Source of the DNA: Desulfovulcanus ferrireducens | GTDB taxonomy: Bacteria; Desulfobacterota; Desulfovibrionia; Desulfovibrionales; Desulfonatronovibrionaceae | Assembly (NCBI RefSeq): GCF_018704065.1 | Contig: NZ_JAGUQP010000014.1 | Coordinates: 1-64,000, forward strand | Reading direction: 5' to 3' | Length of the DNA stretch: 64,000 nt | Shown here: one piece after another, positions 28,718 to 44,896 of the stretch | How positions within the stretch are numbered: position 1 is the stretch's first letter | Layout: each line of letters begins with the position of its first letter | Notes under the pieces: model-generated | What the model was told of the DNA's origin: nothing | The model's input: only the letters and a program-made list of their open reading frames with translations | The model's database searches: none | Translations under genes and position numbers: made by a program

Positions 28718-28867
28718 GGGTGGACCCGCTAGCGTTCTAACTCAAAAGTATTTTCCACTTTTCGTCATTCTAAGGGAGCGGAAGGACCGAAGGATCTCCT
28801 GCCGTAGCGAACGGGATTCTTCGCTTTGCTCAGAATGACGTAATCAGAGCAACTAGCTGATGCACCC
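28718..28867. mobile_element. MITE family E, copy 1
   Basis: 150 bp with ~25-bp inverted ends, GGGTGGACCCGCTAG and CTAGCTGATGCACCC, enclosing a second palindrome CGTCATTCTAAG...CTCAGAATGACG. It is matched almost base for base at 30703-30852. No ORF. 28604-28717 before it shows nothing. Confidence 0.8.
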
Positions 28868-28994
28868 GACAAGACCTATGTAACATTTGAGATGGTTCAG
28901 GTTTTTAAATCGATTAATATCCTTGATTTCAGTAAAAAGGTAATGGTCGTTTTAATCCTTGCCTTCGGGAAGGGATGTTGCGAAAATAGTGTAC

Positions 28995-29562
28995 GTCATG
29001 ATTCCGTTTGACTTCCCACCTTATCTCACAACGCATTAAAATAACATAAAATCAGACCCCATCCTAATATCTAACCCCTAAATAATTAAGCGATTTTTAA
29101 TTGAGTTTTACATTAACTATTTGGAATAAAAGTAGATTTTAAGCCAGCGATTTTCACTCAATAGGTGAGATTGCCACGGGCAGCTCCGCTGCCCTCGCAA
29201 TGACAATCTCGCCCCTGTCATTGCGAGCGGAACAAAGTGGAGCGAAGCAATCTCAAAGTTTGAACTGCAAAAAAATCGCGCAAGTTAGGATTTAACTTAC
29301 TTTTAATCTTTCACGTCTCACGCAGTACGCTTTAAAAGAATAATTAAGAGAAGCGAGCCAATTTTTATATTATTATATTAGGTTGGCAAAAAGGAAGTTT
29401 TTTTAGATCTAATAATTCCTATGGAAAGTTTTAATTTTTACGCTAACCATTGAGTATAATATGTAATTTTAATGCAGGTGGTCTGATTAATAAAAATTTT
29501 ATATTGTCATAAAGTCTTTTTTTTATTTTTTTCTTGTTATAAAGGTGAGTTGATGTTATCTT
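28995..29562 (+). promoter_or_regulatory. Repeat D, copy 1, with conserved promoter
   Basis: It begins at TTTGACTTCCCACCTTATC, contains an inserted family A element, continues with CTCACGCAGTACGCTTTAA and AGCGAGCCAATTTTT, and ends in a promoter: TTGTTA (29534-29539), 17 bp, TATCTT (29557-29562). The same order of blocks occurs in five more copies at 31, 33.3, 34.5, 39.2 and 44.7 kb. It lies ~100 bp upstream of a lipoprotein gene. Confidence 0.75.
29088..29285. mobile_element. MITE family A, copy 4 (long form), inside repeat D1
   Basis: AAGCGATTTTTAATTGAG at the left, a second GCGATTTTCACTC, the core GAGATTGCCACGGGCAG, and AAAAAATCGCGCAAGTT at the right. The long form has ~55 bp of extra sequence at its left, as do copies 6 and 7. 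Confidence 0.75.
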
Positions 29563-29663
29563 CTTTGGAATTCCTTTAGGGGAAAGGATTTGTGTTAAGT
29601 ATCTTAAATTTATCTAATTTATGTTAGATCTCTGAATGTATCGAGGGGATCTGAGGAGGAAGC

Positions 29664-30239
29664 ATGTATTCTATAGCCAAACGAAAAGGCCAGTATTTTC
29701 TGCTTTTGCCGCTTGTACTCTTTATTGTAGGCTGTCATTTATGGAACTCAAACAATAATACACAGTCTAATGAAGCAGTCGTAGAGGCTAGGCAGAAAAT
29801 CGCGCAGTATAAAGAAGAGGCTACGCTATTGGCCTCACGCATTAAGCGTCAATATGAAGGTAATGAAAACACGCAGAACTATATCAAGGCCCGGGATTTG
29901 TACGATATTGCTATGACTCAGAATAACAGCTGGGTGACTTCGTTGAAGCTTGGCATCGCAAATAATGAAGACCTAGAAAAGACGCAAGCGTTTAAAGACA
30001 AGGCAAAGTCTGCCGCTGAGGCCTCTAAGACATTTAGAGAATTTGGTAATAGTGTAATGCCTAAGACTAAGATGGTTGGGGTATCATATATAGTGGTGAG
30101 CAACCTCATAGGATTACTAGTCGAGAATGGGCTCGTTATATGGAATAACTACAGGGGAGAGCAAGAAGCGGCCAGAGTAGCCGCAGCAGAGCGAACCGAG
30201 AAGGAACTTAGATGGTCTAGGTGGGAAGACATTAAGTAA
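29664..30239 (+). CDS. Hypothetical lipoprotein (first cassette gene)
   Basis: 191 aa with a lipoprotein signal ending LVLFIVGC (Cys ~29), a charged coiled-coil-like region (residues 40-70) and a C-terminal amphipathic or membrane segment MVGVSYIVVSNLIGLLVENG. No family recognised. Strong GAGGAGG site before the ATG. Repeat D1 supplies a promoter upstream, and an attC-like site follows 17 bp after the stop, as expected for an integron cassette. Confidence 0.7.
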   Translation: MYSIAKRKGQYFLLLPLVLFIVGCHLWNSNNNTQSNEAVVEARQKIAQYKEEATLLASRIKRQYEGNENTQNYIKARDLYDIAMTQNNSWVTSLKLGIANNEDLEKTQAFKDKAKSAAEASKTFREFGNSVMPKTKMVGVSYIVVSNLIGLLVENGLVIWNNYRGEQEAARVAAAERTEKELRWSRWEDIK

Positions 30240-30256
30240 TCACGCCAATGAAAACG

Positions 30257-30428
30257 ATCTAACCCTTCATTCCAACCGACCGGCTCCGCCAGCGGCTGGG
30301 TCCACATAATGAGCCTATAGAAAAACGCCAAAATGGCTGTTTTTCTGGAATTCGGGAATAGTAGTAATTTCATGTAGTTACAAACCCATAAGTTGTGAAA
30401 AATGATTTTTTCTACAGACTCGTTGGGC
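30257..30428 (+). other. attC-like site, interrupted by MITE C
   Basis: R''-like ATCTAAC (30257-30263) is followed by CCTTCATTCCAACCGACCGG, a small palindrome and, after an inserted 111-bp element, R' GTTGGGC (30422-30428), matching GTTRRRY. The sequence before the insertion is very similar in style to known ~60-bp attC sites. It lies directly after the lipoprotein gene. Confidence 0.6.
30311..30421. mobile_element. MITE family C, copy 1
   Basis: Ends GAGCCTATAGAAAAA and TTTTTTCTACAGACTC are terminal inverted repeats. The body shares GAATTCGGGAATAG and AGTTACAAACCCATAA with copies at 37.3 and 40.3 kb. 111 bp, non-coding. Confidence 0.75.
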
Positions 30429-30702: not shown

Positions 30703-30852
30703 GGGTGCATCCGCTAGTGTTCTAGCTCAAAAGTATTTTTCACCTCTCGTCATTCTGAGGGAGCGGAACGACCGAAGAATCTCCTACCGTAGCGAATGAG
30801 ATTCTTTGCTTTGCTCAGAATGACGTAATCAGAGCAACTAGCGGATGCACCC
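30703..30852. mobile_element. MITE family E, copy 2
   Basis: GGGTGCATCCGCTAGTGTTC at the left and GCAACTAGCGGATGCACCC at the right form near-perfect inverted ends around CGTCATTCTGAG...CTCAGAATGACG. Same length as copy 1; both are followed by the same ~130 bp and then repeat D. Confidence 0.82.
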
Positions 30853-30984
30853 GACAAGACCTATGTAAGATTTGAGATGGCTCAGGTTTTTAAATCGATT
30901 AATATCTTTGATTTCAGTAAAAAGGTAATAGTCGTTTTAATCCTCCCCTTCGGAAAAGGATGCTGCGAAAATAATAAGCGTTCA

Positions 30985-31494
30985 TGATTTCGTTTGACTT
31001 CCCACCTTATCTCACAACGCATTAAAATAACATAAAATCAGAACCCATCCTAATATCTAACCCCTAAATTAAGCGATTTTCACTCGATAGTTGAGATTGC
31101 CACGGGCAGCTCCGCTGCCCTCGCAATGACAGGATGTGCGCTATGTCATTGCGAGGAGCGTTAGCCTTGATGCAATCTCAAACTTTAAACTGCAAAAAAA
31201 TCGCGCAAGTTAGGATTTAACTTGTTTTAATCTTTCACGTCTCACGCAGTACGCTTTAAAAGAATAATTAAAAGAAGCGAGCCAATTTTTTATTTAAAAT
31301 ATTATGATTATATTAGGTCGATGAAAAGGAATTTTTTGGGCTAACTTATTTCTATGGAAAGTTTTAATTTTTACGCTAACCATTTAAGATAATATGTAAT
31401 TTTTATACAGATAGTCTGGTTAACTTGATTTTTTGATTGTCAAAAAGCCTATTTTTTATTTTATCTTAATACAAAAGTAAGTTAGGGTTATTTT
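30985..31494 (+). promoter_or_regulatory. Repeat D, copy 2, with conserved promoter
   Basis: Same blocks as copy 1, including a family A insertion. Promoter: TTAATA (31466-31471), 17 bp, TATTTT (31489-31494). It lies ~125 bp upstream of the HPP gene. With E2 it forms a ~780-bp direct repeat of 28718-29500. Confidence 0.72.
31069..31211. mobile_element. MITE family A, copy 5 (short form), inside repeat D2
   Basis: From TTAAGCGATTTTCACTCG to AAAAAAATCGCGCAAG, with the core GAGATTGCCACGGGCAG and GTCATTGCGAGGAGCG. It lacks the extra ~55 bp seen in copy 4. Confidence 0.75.
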
Positions 31495-31619
31495 AATTAA
31501 ATATTATTAAACCATATTAATTTATGTTAGCCAGTATCATAAACGACTAGTTTAATGTGTAATCTTATCAGATAGAAGTATCACTTATATTCTTTATAGG
31601 TGGTAGATGGAGATGTTTT

Positions 31620-32156: not shown

Positions 32157-32258
32157 AGTGTTAAATTCACCGTAACTTTCGGTCCACCGCTAATGGAACT
32201 AAAAGAAGAAAAGTTATGATAACTTCTGGCTATTGTTGCCTAATTTAAAGAAAATGCG

Positions 32259-32331
32259 GTCTAATCAGTCGTTGAAGTCAGATGTGCGAAGGCTAGCGTT
32301 TTTATACGCCGCTGAACTTAATGTATTAGGC
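32259..32331 (+). other. attC-like site
   Basis: Left arm GTCTAATCAGTCGTTGAAG and right arm CTGAACTTAATGTATTAGGC are imperfectly complementary (GTCTAAT/ATTAGGC, GAAGTCAG/CTGAACTT) with a central stem-loop. The R' box reads ATTAGGC, not GTTRRRY. It lies between the HPP and wrbA genes. Confidence 0.55.
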
Positions 32332-32401
32332 AAAAAGATGTCAGCAATGGCAAAAATTATGAATAAATACCAGGCGGTTAAGTTATTATAAGGAGAGGAA
32401 T

Positions 32402-33209: not shown

Positions 33210-33422
33210 TTCCGATTTTTTATTTGAAATATTATGATATTAGGTCGCTGAAAAGGAAGTTTTTTAGGGCAACTACATTTTAGGAGAAACTTGAATTTTT
33301 ACGTTAACCATATAAGATGATATGTAATTATAATTCAGTTAGTTTGAATGGGCAAAATTTTAGAAAGTCAAAAAAGTTTATTTTTTATTTTCCTTGCTAT
33401 AAAAATTAATTAATGCTAATTG
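33210..33422 (+). promoter_or_regulatory. Repeat D, copy 3 (3' half only)
   Basis: It starts within the ATTTTTTATTTGAAATATTA block and keeps the rest of D. Promoter-like TTGCTA (33394-33399), 17 bp, TAATTG (33417-33422). It leads into a gene fragment. Confidence 0.65.
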
Positions 33423-33443
33423 TTTTGAATAACATTTAGGATA

Positions 33444-34077: not shown

Positions 34078-34147
34078 CACCTGACAAGTGCATCAAGACT
34101 GACAGCTAGGCCATTGGCCTAGCTGCAGCTTATGCTGGCCGTTGTGA
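34072..34147 (+). other. attC-like site
   Basis: It overlaps the RRM stop codon. TATTAAC then ACCTGACAAGTGCATC pairs imperfectly with CAGCTTATGCTGGCCGTT; the centre is a perfect 10-bp hairpin CAGCTAGGCC-ATT-GGCCTAGCTG. The terminal box GTTGTGA deviates from GTTRRRY. 34148-34317 downstream has only small hairpins (CTAGCCCGTAAGGGCTAAG, CTGCCACTCGGTGGCAG). Confidence 0.5.
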
Positions 34148-34317
34148 TAGTAGAAAAGCCAGATTTTTATATAAACTAGCCCGTAAGGGCTAAGATCTAA
34201 GATTTTTATCTGCCACTCGGTGGCAGGAAAAGAAAACTTTGAGCCTTCCTGCCCTGTTGAATCCTGCCTTCTGGCAGTCAAGAAATGAAAAGGGTGCAGC
34301 GAAAAAAAACAGTATGC

Positions 34318-34715
34318 TCTCATCATTTCGTTAGACTACCCGCCTTATCTCTCAACATATTAAAATAACAGAGAATCTGAATTTATTCTTGTTGGTAATG
34401 CAACATCGTCAAAATTATATCTAAAAGCAAGTTTTGCTTCACCTTTAATTTTTAACGTCTCAAGCAGTACGCTTTAAAAGAATAATTAAAAGAAGCGAGC
34501 CAATTTTTTATTTGAAATATTATGATTATATTAGGTTGGCGAAAAAGAAGTTTTTTAGGTTTAATAATTTCTATAGAAAGTTTTAATTTTTACGTTAACC
34601 ATCTAAGATGATATATGATTTTAATATAGATGCCCTTATTAATCGTAATTATAGAGCTCCAATAAACCTATTTTTTTTATTTTTTCTTGATACAAAGATA
34701 AATTGATGTTAGAAT
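34318..34715 (+). promoter_or_regulatory. Repeat D, copy 4 (no MITE insertion), with conserved promoter
   Basis: Complete D without family A: GTTAGACTACCCGCCTTATC, CTCAAGCAGTACGCTTTAA, AGCGAGCCAATTTTTTATT, TTTTTACGTTAACCATC. The promoter is the best of the six: TTGATA (34687-34692), 17 bp, TAGAAT (34710-34715). It lies 110 bp upstream of two tiny ORFs. Confidence 0.78.
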
Positions 34716-34824
34716 AGCAAATATTACTTATGAATCTAAATTTATGTGCTAGAAATACATGAAAAAAATAGAGATTTAAGATATAAATAAATGCTCGCTC
34801 TCATATAAAGAGTTCTATGGTCTT

Positions 34825-34998
34825 ATGGACGAGCTTTTATTTAAGATTTTTGGACGTCTCACAAAAGAAATTCTAAAATTTGTACTCTTTAACGATGAGG
34901 TTGTGAATGTTTTGAAAAAAGTTCTTAAAGCTCCTAGTTACATAATTCACAGTATTTTCATCGAAAACTCGGAGTTACTTTTAAATAAAGAAGGATGA
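34825..34998 (+). CDS. Small ORF, 57 aa (first of a tiny two-gene cassette)
   Basis: MDELLFKIFGRLTKEILKFV continues to a C-terminus ENSELLLNKEG. Alternating hydrophobic and charged residues suggest amphipathic helices. It is one base apart from the next ORF (TGA-A-ATG), so they are probably coupled. Promoter D4 is upstream and an attC lies after the pair. No family recognised; a toxin-antitoxin pair is possible but not shown. Confidence 0.5.
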   Translation: MDELLFKIFGRLTKEILKFVLFNDEVVNVLKKVLKAPSYIIHSIFIENSELLLNKEG

Positions 34999-34999
34999 A

Positions 35000-35149
35000 A
35001 TGAATTTTTATCAGAGGTTAAAAGCTATTAGAAATACAATCAATTCAGCATACCAATTGCTAAGTCAGGTCGTAGAAAGCCTAATGGAATCAAAGAGGTT
35101 AGAGTCTAATAAGATATTTAATAATATCGAAAGAAGATATGAAATGTAA
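35000..35149 (+). CDS. Small ORF, 49 aa (second of a tiny two-gene cassette)
   Basis: MNFYQRLKAIRNTINSAYQL...FNNIERRYEM, a mostly helical, charged peptide. The AAGAAGG ribosome-binding site lies inside the end of the previous ORF. Its stop codon is 3 bp before a well-formed attC, the usual spacing in cassettes, which supports that it is a real gene. Confidence 0.5.
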   Translation: MNFYQRLKAIRNTINSAYQLLSQVVESLMESKRLESNKIFNNIERRYEM

Positions 35150-35151
35150 CT

Positions 35152-35223
35152 TTCTAACATAGCGCATCCACTTTGACCTCAAAAGCCTTGTGGCTTTGGC
35201 GTACGTGATGCGCACCGTTAAAC
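35152..35223 (+). other. attC site (well-formed)
   Basis: TTCTAAC (R'') ... GTTAAAC (R', matches GTTRRRY). Arms AACATAGCGCATCCACTT and ACGTGATGCGCACCGTT are complementary except for unpaired bases, as in attC. The central hairpin AAAGCC-TTGT-GGCTTT closes the site. 72 bp, between two unrelated cassette genes. Confidence 0.75.
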
Positions 35224-35257: not shown

Positions 35258-35926
35258 ATGGAAGAATTATTCGTCTTTAGACTCAACAAATTAAAAATTC
35301 TGGACAGTCGTGAGTGGGGACCTGGCGAACTTAAGATACTAAGTTTCATTACAGGTGAAGACGTGAACCTTCCCGTGTTGGATGATCTTCAGCGCACAAC
35401 AGATCCGGAGCGAAAAAAACAACTGATCAAGGTCGCTACCCAATCGGTTCTGAGTTCAAAGGTTTTAATGCAACTGGACAACGTAAGAGACGGTCATCAA
35501 ATGACATTCGGTGACACAGGATACGCACTGTATACCGCTCAAAAGATACCGGAATCGTTCAACTGGCGTCTAATAATCCTTGAGATTGACGAAGATGTAA
35601 ACAATCTAGGACGAAAGCTAGACAATGTGATTAACGCTCCGGAATTCGATGGTTTCGTGGGCAACGTTTTAGCTCTGGCCAGCGCTGCAGCGAATCCTGC
35701 TGCTGTAGCTGGAGTTGCTATTGCAAAGTACGTGTTTGGCATAATTGCAGATACGATGATTGAAAACAAAGACGACCAGGTGGGTCTAGTTTATCAGTCG
35801 TTTACTCGAGAAGAACATTACCCCCACGGAGAGAGAAAGCGTGATAATGTTCCGGACCTGAGCAATAACGTGCTGGTTGACTATTCGATTTTCGGGACGA
35901 CTTACGAGAGACCTAAAGTTGCCTAA
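35258..35926 (+). CDS. Hypothetical protein (cassette gene)
   Basis: 222 aa. The N-terminal half (VFRLNKLKILDSREWGPGEL) looks like a beta-rich domain; the middle holds a hydrophobic Ala-rich segment (VLALASAAANPAAVAGVAIA), probably a buried or membrane-associated helix; the C-terminus ends VLVDYSIFGTTYERPKVA. I recognise no family. AAAAAGGAGGGAC precedes the ATG, 34 bp after the upstream attC. Its stop codon overlaps a GCCTAAC box. Confidence 0.75.
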   Translation: MEELFVFRLNKLKILDSREWGPGELKILSFITGEDVNLPVLDDLQRTTDPERKKQLIKVATQSVLSSKVLMQLDNVRDGHQMTFGDTGYALYTAQKIPESFNWRLIILEIDEDVNNLGRKLDNVINAPEFDGFVGNVLALASAAANPAAVAGVAIAKYVFGIIADTMIENKDDQVGLVYQSFTREEHYPHGERKRDNVPDLSNNVLVDYSIFGTTYERPKVA

Positions 35927-37178: not shown

Positions 37179-37188
37179 TTTTATGAAG

Positions 37189-37362
37189 AGCTAACGAGCC
37201 AATTAAGGCGTCTCCTCGCTACGCTCGGTCCGCTTATTGGTGACGTTGAGCCTGTAGAAAACACCCAAAATAACCGATTTTCTGAAATTCGGGAATAGGA
37301 ATTTCAGGTAGTTATAAGTCCATAAATTGTAAAAAAGGGTTTTTTCTACAGACTCGTTAGGG
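37189..37362 (+). other. attC site, interrupted by MITE C at GTT
   Basis: Left arm GCTAACGAGCCAATTAAGGCG and right arm CGCTTATTGGTGACGTT are complementary with unpaired bases; the loop is a hairpin TCGCTACGCTCGG. After the GTT (37245-37247) a 108-bp element starts; it is followed by GTTAGGG (37356-37362). Removing the element and one GTT restores ACGTTAGGG, a near match to R'. Confidence 0.7.
37248..37355. mobile_element. MITE family C, copy 2
   Basis: GAGCCTGTAGAAAACACCC at the left and GGGTTTTTTCTACAGACTC at the right form the inverted ends, and GTT is repeated on both flanks. No ORF. Confidence 0.78.
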
Positions 37363-38949: not shown

Positions 38950-39523
38950 TCATTGCGCCTTTTGACTACCCGCCTTATCTCACAACAGATTAAAATAACA
39001 TAAAATTTGAACCCTTCCTTATATCTAACACCTAAGTTGAGCGATTTTTAATTGAGTTTTTCGTTAACCTTTTGGAATAAAATTAGATTTTGAGCCAGCG
39101 ATTTTCACTCAATAGGTGAGATTGCCACGGGCAGCTTCACTGCCCTCGCAATGACAATCTCGCCCCTGTCATTGCGAGCTTAAGCAAAGTGGAGCGAAGC
39201 AATCTCAAACTTTGGACTGCAAAAAAATCGCACAAGTTAGGATTTAACTTGTTTTTAACTTTTCACATCTCACGCAGTACCCTTTAAAAAAATTACGAGA
39301 AGCGAATTAGTTTTTTACTGGAAATAATGTTATTATATTAAGTTGGTGAAAAGTAAGTTTTAAGGCTAACTAACTTCTAGTAATAATTTAAATTTTTACA
39401 TTAATCGTTTAAAATGATGGTATAAGTTTAATACAGGTGATCTGATTAATAATGGTTTTAAATTATCATAAAAGCCATTCTTCTCATTTTTTACTTGAAA
39501 TAAAAATGAGTTAATCTTATAAA
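38950..39523 (+). promoter_or_regulatory. Repeat D, copy 5, with conserved promoter
   Basis: TTTTGACTACCCGCCTTATC at the left, a family A insertion, CTCACGCAGTACCCTTTAA, and the promoter TTGAAA (39495-39500), 17 bp, TATAAA (39518-39523). It begins within what looks like an attC-like sequence after the DUF6544 gene, and lies ~120 bp before the YaiI-like gene. Confidence 0.75.
39037..39238. mobile_element. MITE family A, copy 6 (long form), inside repeat D5
   Basis: TTGAGCGATTTTTAATTGAG to AAAAAAATCGCACAAG, with core GAGATTGCCACGGGCAG. Same insertion point in D as copies 4 and 5. Confidence 0.78.
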
Positions 39524-39643
39524 AAATAAGTATTAAATGACACATAAATTTATCTTGTTGGTATGTAACATACAGCGGATACAACAGAAGGTAGGCGAGT
39601 TTTGAGGTTTCCAAAAGCGAATATAGCAGGAAAAGATAATTTA

Positions 39644-40096: not shown

Positions 40097-40356
40097 AGGG
40101 TTGCAAATGCACATATCAATGGCATGCAGCTGACCGCATTTGCCCTCGGTGGTTTTTTGAAGCCTTGTCTCCCGCATGAAGTTTGGTGCAATTTTAAAGT
40201 TGTTTGCTCCGCGTGTTTGGCGCAGCTTACGCCTATACGTTGAGCCTGTTGAAAATCTCCAAAATGGGCGATTTTTTGAAAATTGGACATAGTAATTTCA
40301 GCTAGTTACAAGCCCATAAATCGCAAAAGATGGATTTTTTTACAGACTCGTTGTGT
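40088..40356 (+). other. Long VCR-like attC candidate, interrupted by MITE C at GTT
   Basis: After the YaiI stop come GCATTTGCCCTCGGTGGTTT, TGAAGTTTGGTGCAATTTTA and GTTTGCTCCGCGTG, in the style of ~125-bp VCR-type sites, ending ACGCCTATACGTT (40239-40241). MITE C starts there, followed by GTTGTGT (40350-40356). The arms are less clear than in the shorter sites. Confidence 0.45.
40242..40349. mobile_element. MITE family C, copy 3
   Basis: GAGCCTGTTGAAAATC to GGATTTTTTTACAGACTC, flanked by GTT on both sides. Shares AGTTACAAGCCCATAAATCG with copy 1. 108 bp. Confidence 0.75.
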
Positions 40357-43221: not shown

Positions 43222-43268
43222 TTACTTATTATGATTAATTTTTGTCGTGAGATTAAGATAAACTTAAG

Positions 43269-43470
43269 TTGAGCGATTTTTAATTTAGACTTACATTAAA
43301 AACATTGGAATAAAAGTAGATTTTGAGCCAGCGACTTTCACCCAATGGGTGAGATTGCCACGGGCAGCGTAGCTGCCCTCGCAATGACAATCTCGCCCCT
43401 GTTATTGCGAGCTTAAGCAAAGTGGAGTGAAGCAATCTCAAAGTTTGAACTACAAAAAAATCGCTCAATT
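43269..43470. mobile_element. MITE family A, copy 7 (long form, best-preserved ends)
   Basis: TTGAGCGATTTTTAATTTAG at the left and AAAAAAATCGCTCAA at the right are clear inverted ends. It is a free-standing copy, not inside D. The rest of the 43222-43599 gap holds only a remnant of a family C right end (GCTTTTTCTACAATCACGTGAGG). Confidence 0.82.
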
Positions 43471-43599
43471 TAGGGTAAAGTAATCCAGGGTCAGAACCGG
43501 ATGAGGGGCATGAACCCCCATATCACCAAAGCCATATCTCCATAAAACATTACTCAAAAAACCAGGGTTTATTTTCATAATTGCTTTTTCTACAATCAC

Positions 43600-44403: not shown

Positions 44404-44531
44404 TCTATTTTTGTACTTTTAAATATGGTATGGTTAGAAACTAGAGTAATCAGGGGATGCAACCATTTTGTTTCTCGCCTTCCAGAATTCAGGAATGGAA
44501 AATAGGGCAGTGAAATCATCTATTGCCCATG

Positions 44532-44830
44532 TTTCCGTTTAACTTCCTGCCTTGTCTTGTAACATATTTAGATTGATAAAAATCAAAAAACTTTATTTGG
44601 AATGCAAAAGGGGCAAGATTATATCTACAAACAAGACGTCACCTATTTTTATTCCTCATGTCTCACGCCGTACTCTTAAAAGATGTAAAAGAAGTCACCA
44701 AACTTTGTTGAAAACAGTGTGATTATATTATGTTGGTTAATGTAAATTTTTTATAATTTAAATATATATCAGCGTTAGATAAATTTATTTGTCAATTTTC
44801 CTTGACTAAGAAAGTGCTTAACAATAATAG
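44532..44830 (+). promoter_or_regulatory. Repeat D, copy 6 (diverged), with conserved promoter
   Basis: TTTAACTTCCTGCCTTGTC, CTCACGCCGTACTCTTAAAAG and GTGATTATATTATGTTGG recall the other copies but are more diverged. Promoter TTGACT (44802-44807), 17 bp, TAATAG (44825-44830), 67 bp before the next start codon. 44404-44531 before it shows nothing else. Confidence 0.62.
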
Positions 44831-44896
44831 GCAAAAGTTCTTGGAGCCATATAAATCTATGTTCTGCTCTCAGATGACTTGATTAATGGAGTAACA

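Follow-up and report, generated by a model that had tools for sequence, protein, structure and literature searches.

Integron cassettes mostly encode proteins of unknown function, and ORFan cassettes are common. Gene finders readily overlook very small ORFs. A CALIN, as defined in IntegronFinder 2.0, has two or more attC sites and lacks intI (PMC9024848). The integron of Vibrio cholerae includes toxin-antitoxin cassettes with their own promoters (PMC11023631), and gene-less cassettes that promote downstream cassettes are also known in Vibrio (PMC11014356).

Here, we analyzed a window of 64,000 nucleotides, which is the whole stretch of Desulfovulcanus ferrireducens DNA under study and to which all positions refer. 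It contains an array, from about 28.6 to 45.5 kb, of cassette-like genes that lie nearly all on the plus strand and are flanked by conserved chromosomal genes. A segment of this array had been read as a cassette from the sequence only, and the finding there of a promoter-like site, two small ORFs and an attC, in that order, supports that reading. See Table 1 for the coordinates of all features. We interpret the segment as a self-promoted orphan cassette; its products would be a small helical protein and, probably, a translationally coupled helical partner. We put the probability of this interpretation at about 0.5. The clear punctuation of the locus (promoter, two coupled ORFs, attC) makes it a clean candidate in the search for small proteins. 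A functional pair would be a new small two-protein module, and a non-functional one would be one more ORFan cassette.

Table 1. Positions of the cassette features and of the gene that follows them.
Feature	Position	Strand	Description
Repeated leader ("D" element)	34320..34775	+	Direct repeats D1, D4-D9, D12; own-genome DNA search; edges approximate
Putative sigma-70-like promoter	34687..34715	+	TTGATA-N17-TAGAAT, extended -10 (TG); consensus scan, 10/12 matches
ORF1	34825..34998	+	57 aa, predicted three-helix small protein; codon signal, AF2, weak ribosome-binding site
Ribosome-binding-like site of ORF2	34990..34995	+	GAAGGA, within the 3' end of ORF1; anti-SD pairing
ORF2	35000..35149	+	49 aa, one long helix predicted; less certain to be coding
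attC	35152..35223	+	R'' TTCTAAC ... GTTAAAC R'; L stem GCGCATC/GATGCGC with bulged base
Next cassette gene	35258..35926	+	222 aa; follows attC; paralogue on contig C5

The attC site expected at the 3' end of the cassette has both the R''/R' and the L''/L' stems as well as the bulged base, and it stands as claimed. The bottom strand folds into an R stem, an L stem carrying the bulged base, and an inner stem-loop, with a z score of -2.8 and 2 of 200 shuffles as stable. The first base of R'' departs from RYYYAAC. In shuffled 17-kb arrays, the paired-box score of the site came up 0.25 times per array; therefore, a chance attC-like site directly after an ORF is unlikely. The 5' boundary of the cassette would be expected at the GTTRRRY core of a preceding attC. 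There are two candidates, a GTTAGAC at 34331 and, at 34079-34157, a hairpin whose R boxes are unpaired, and neither passed the scan. The site at 35152-35223 is the one clear attC in the array. Other sites, 37188-37254 among them, have attC-like boxes, fold weakly and look decayed, and a stricter scan, whose cut-off was too high, found no site in the array. The segment at 32222-32338 has GCCTAAT...ATTAGGC ends that pair perfectly and depart from the AAC/GTT core; it may be a decayed attC in which both arms have changed to match.

A search of the genome, which is 98.6% complete, with the integron-integrase model TIGR02249 gave no match over the cut-off. The best two matches below it are proteins of 307 and 324 aa, which we read as XerC/XerD-type proteins. 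IntI was detected above the cut-off in 2 of 18 genomes of the same family. Because the genome has no gene over the integron-integrase cut-off, the array is best read as a CALIN, that is, a cassette cluster without its integrase, with one clean attC only against the threshold of two given above. Like a CALIN, it has several cassette-like genes in one orientation, compact ORF content up to the attC, and an attC with R and L stems and a bulged base. However, only one attC passes the scan cleanly here, two tiny ORFs take the place of one gene, and a promoter-bearing leader lies inside the cassette and is repeated across cassettes.

Next, we considered the ORF pair. Both tiny ORFs are present as claimed, and the one-base gap between them (TGA-A-ATG) was borne out. 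The gap between the ORF2 stop codon and the attC is 2 bp and not the 3 bp that had been given. Among 3000 dinucleotide shuffles of 34720-35151, none gave an adjacent pair of ATG ORFs with 40 or more codons each, and 0.1% gave such a pair when GTG and TTG starts were allowed. The pair is above chance, at about 0.001 on dinucleotide shuffles. A frameshift fusion of ORF1 and ORF2 was considered unlikely, as there is a stop at 34982 in the frame of ORF2 and the overlap is only about 15 nt.

The length of ORF1 has a P value of 0.0046. Under a codon model for which the array's own genes were the training set, ORF1 scored 0.294 per codon, higher than all off-frame windows and than 92% of left-out true windows, with a likelihood ratio of about 134. 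The signal drops to P 0.056 when the genes of an AT-rich relative are used as the training set. The ribosome-binding site of ORF1 is poor, with a calculated anti-SD pairing of -2.4 kcal/mol. A single-sequence AlphaFold2 model of ORF1 has three helices with a pLDDT of 82.5, and the corresponding model of ORF2 is one 46-residue helix with a pLDDT of 96.8, although single-sequence models of short AT-rich ORFs such as these may come out helical by default. The first helix of ORF1 is amphipathic (P 0.0055 on shuffles). Fold searches with ORF1 gave no significant match in the PDB (best E 2.8) or among viral models (best E 1.5).

ORF2 scored -0.019 under the array-gene model, which is no better than off-frame (likelihood ratio about 0.5). 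Another codon test gave P 0.48, and the P value is 0.80 when the AT-rich relative's genes are used for training. Since codon usage is of the coding type in ORF1 and no better than off-frame in ORF2, ORF1 is the better-supported gene of the pair and looks like a real gene. ORF2 may instead be a chance frame between ORF1 and the attC, which would leave ORF1 as the sole gene; its lack of codon signal under both models agrees with this, but we consider it somewhat unlikely. ORF2 starts one base past the ORF1 stop, has a Shine-Dalgarno site, and ends just before the attC, with a joint chance of about 0.001. The ribosome-binding site described ahead of the second ATG is indeed present, with a calculated anti-SD pairing of -5.5 kcal/mol. 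For an ORF that fills the slot ahead of the attC, P is 0.0077, and it falls to 0.00135 if the ORF must also have a ribosome-binding site of about the quality seen in ORF2. Support for ORF2 thus consists of its position, its ribosome-binding site, and its fit to the attC, and its coding status is less certain. Because ORF2 has no codon-usage signal, "two peptides" is less secure as a description of the cassette than "one peptide and a plausible second."

In the interpretation we prefer, an integron-type gene cassette, sitting in a cluster in a genome without a detectable integron integrase, would bring its own leader with a sigma-70-type promoter, as the consensus match and the repetition of the leader suggest. 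Transcription would begin near 34722 and give a short transcript with both ORF1 and ORF2, and the helical ORF2 peptide would be made by termination-reinitiation at its own Shine-Dalgarno site. The two helical products may form one complex that acts on a host target, and the cassette may have been retained as accessory, lineage-restricted content.

The consensus scan places the promoter-like site 110 bp upstream of ORF1, as claimed. It had also been called the best of the D promoters, which holds for the -10 element: in an alignment of seven leader copies, it is the best -10, and the promoter-like site sits at the same place in the other copies. As a class, sigma-70-like matches are not enriched in the stretch scanned (4 found vs 4.7 expected). 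The leader is about 450 bp long and is also found ahead of the genes at 29664, 31620 and 39602, and in part ahead of 33805 and 44879. Full or partial copies lie at 28718-29620, 30703-31540, 33212-33430, 34320-34775, 38950-39550, 43260-43490 and 44530-44860, and the own-genome DNA search found one on contig C5 (L022:1294-1438), ahead of a gene. Some copies have an extra hairpin repeat, GCCACGGGCAGCTCCGCTGCCC, and a GTTAGAC/GTTTGAC motif at the start of the leader resembles an attC core. A 37-bp match to the leader in one relative was rejected as AT-rich chance. The genes preceded by the leader include what we take to be an HPP-type membrane protein and a DUF188-like protein. The repeated promoter leader may be a more general finding than the ORF pair.

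The C5 copy of the leader precedes a paralogue of the 222-aa gene, at 89% identity, with no ORF1-ORF2 between them; therefore, ORF1-ORF2 fills the gene slot behind the leader. The same arrangement would suit a cassette with no protein product, either one that serves as a promoter for the 222-aa gene downstream or a decayed remnant, and we found no forward terminator from the promoter-like site to 35400. Like the gene-less promoter cassettes of Vibrio (PMC11014356), this cassette has a putative promoter that reads towards downstream cassettes. Unlike them, it contains non-random ORFs, one of which has coding codon usage, and the codon signal of ORF1 together with the non-random pair makes the absence of any product very unlikely. 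The cassette could both encode peptides and drive the downstream gene.

The statement that neither peptide matches a known family stood up in Pfam, PHROGs, NCBIfam, PADLOC and the PDB, where there was no credible match. The homology search that the sequence-only reading had called for likewise gave no credible relative of either peptide in the databases covered. No paralogues of ORF1 or ORF2 were found in their own genome. Among 348 genomes of the order and 395 of the phylum, we found weak matches only, with E 5e-4 at best and 22-45% identity; these are read as chance, as most lie inside longer unrelated frames. Nothing credible was found in GTDB species contigs, IMG/VR, plasmid records or phage records, the last with one match at E=2. 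A joined ORF1+ORF2 query was used in the GTDB, order, phylum, and some plasmid and phage searches, which may cost sensitivity. PDB sequences and PADLOC gave no match, and matches at E 0.016-0.08 in PHROGs, Pfam and NCBIfam were treated as noise. No noncoding RNA family was found.

A toxin-antitoxin or phage-defense role had been guessed for the pair, which would then stabilize the array or protect the host. As in the toxin-antitoxin cassettes of V. cholerae (PMC11023631), two small ORFs are adjacent and a putative promoter lies inside the cassette, and the two peptides differ in net charge, ORF1 being near neutral and ORF2 basic (pI 6.5 and 9.7). However, we found no match to a family of toxins or antitoxins, by sequence or by fold, of the kind that defines type II systems, and the family and structure searches above leave the guess without support. 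ORF1 is also not clearly transmembrane, with a Kyte-Doolittle maximum of 1.19. Furthermore, unlike in V. cholerae, the leader with the promoter is common to other cassettes. Because this same leader precedes ordinary genes, the promoter is no clue to a toxin-antitoxin role. We therefore regard such a role as quite unlikely. Very unlikely, in our view, is a module of two very small helical proteins that has not been described before, for example a new toxin-antitoxin or anti-phage pair, whose expression starts from a leader that spreads from cassette to cassette and provides each with a promoter of its own.

The surroundings of the cassette have several features of their own. The 222-aa gene has no Pfam match. 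Its homologues in two genomes of the same order (72-75% identity) adjoin a patatin-like or hydrolase-like gene, hinting that it may have an effector-associated role. The segment 36349-37085 contains a 114-aa ORF with a weak SLATT-like two-transmembrane match, followed by a tandem near-duplicate segment with a period of about 271 bp and 88-98% identity. Finally, a repeated element, roughly 115 bp long and bounded by the inverted ends GAGYCTGTAGAAAA, occurs at 30310-30425, 37247-37361 and 40241-40355, at attC-like ends and with GTT on both sides in two of its three copies; it is possibly a MITE that targets attC.
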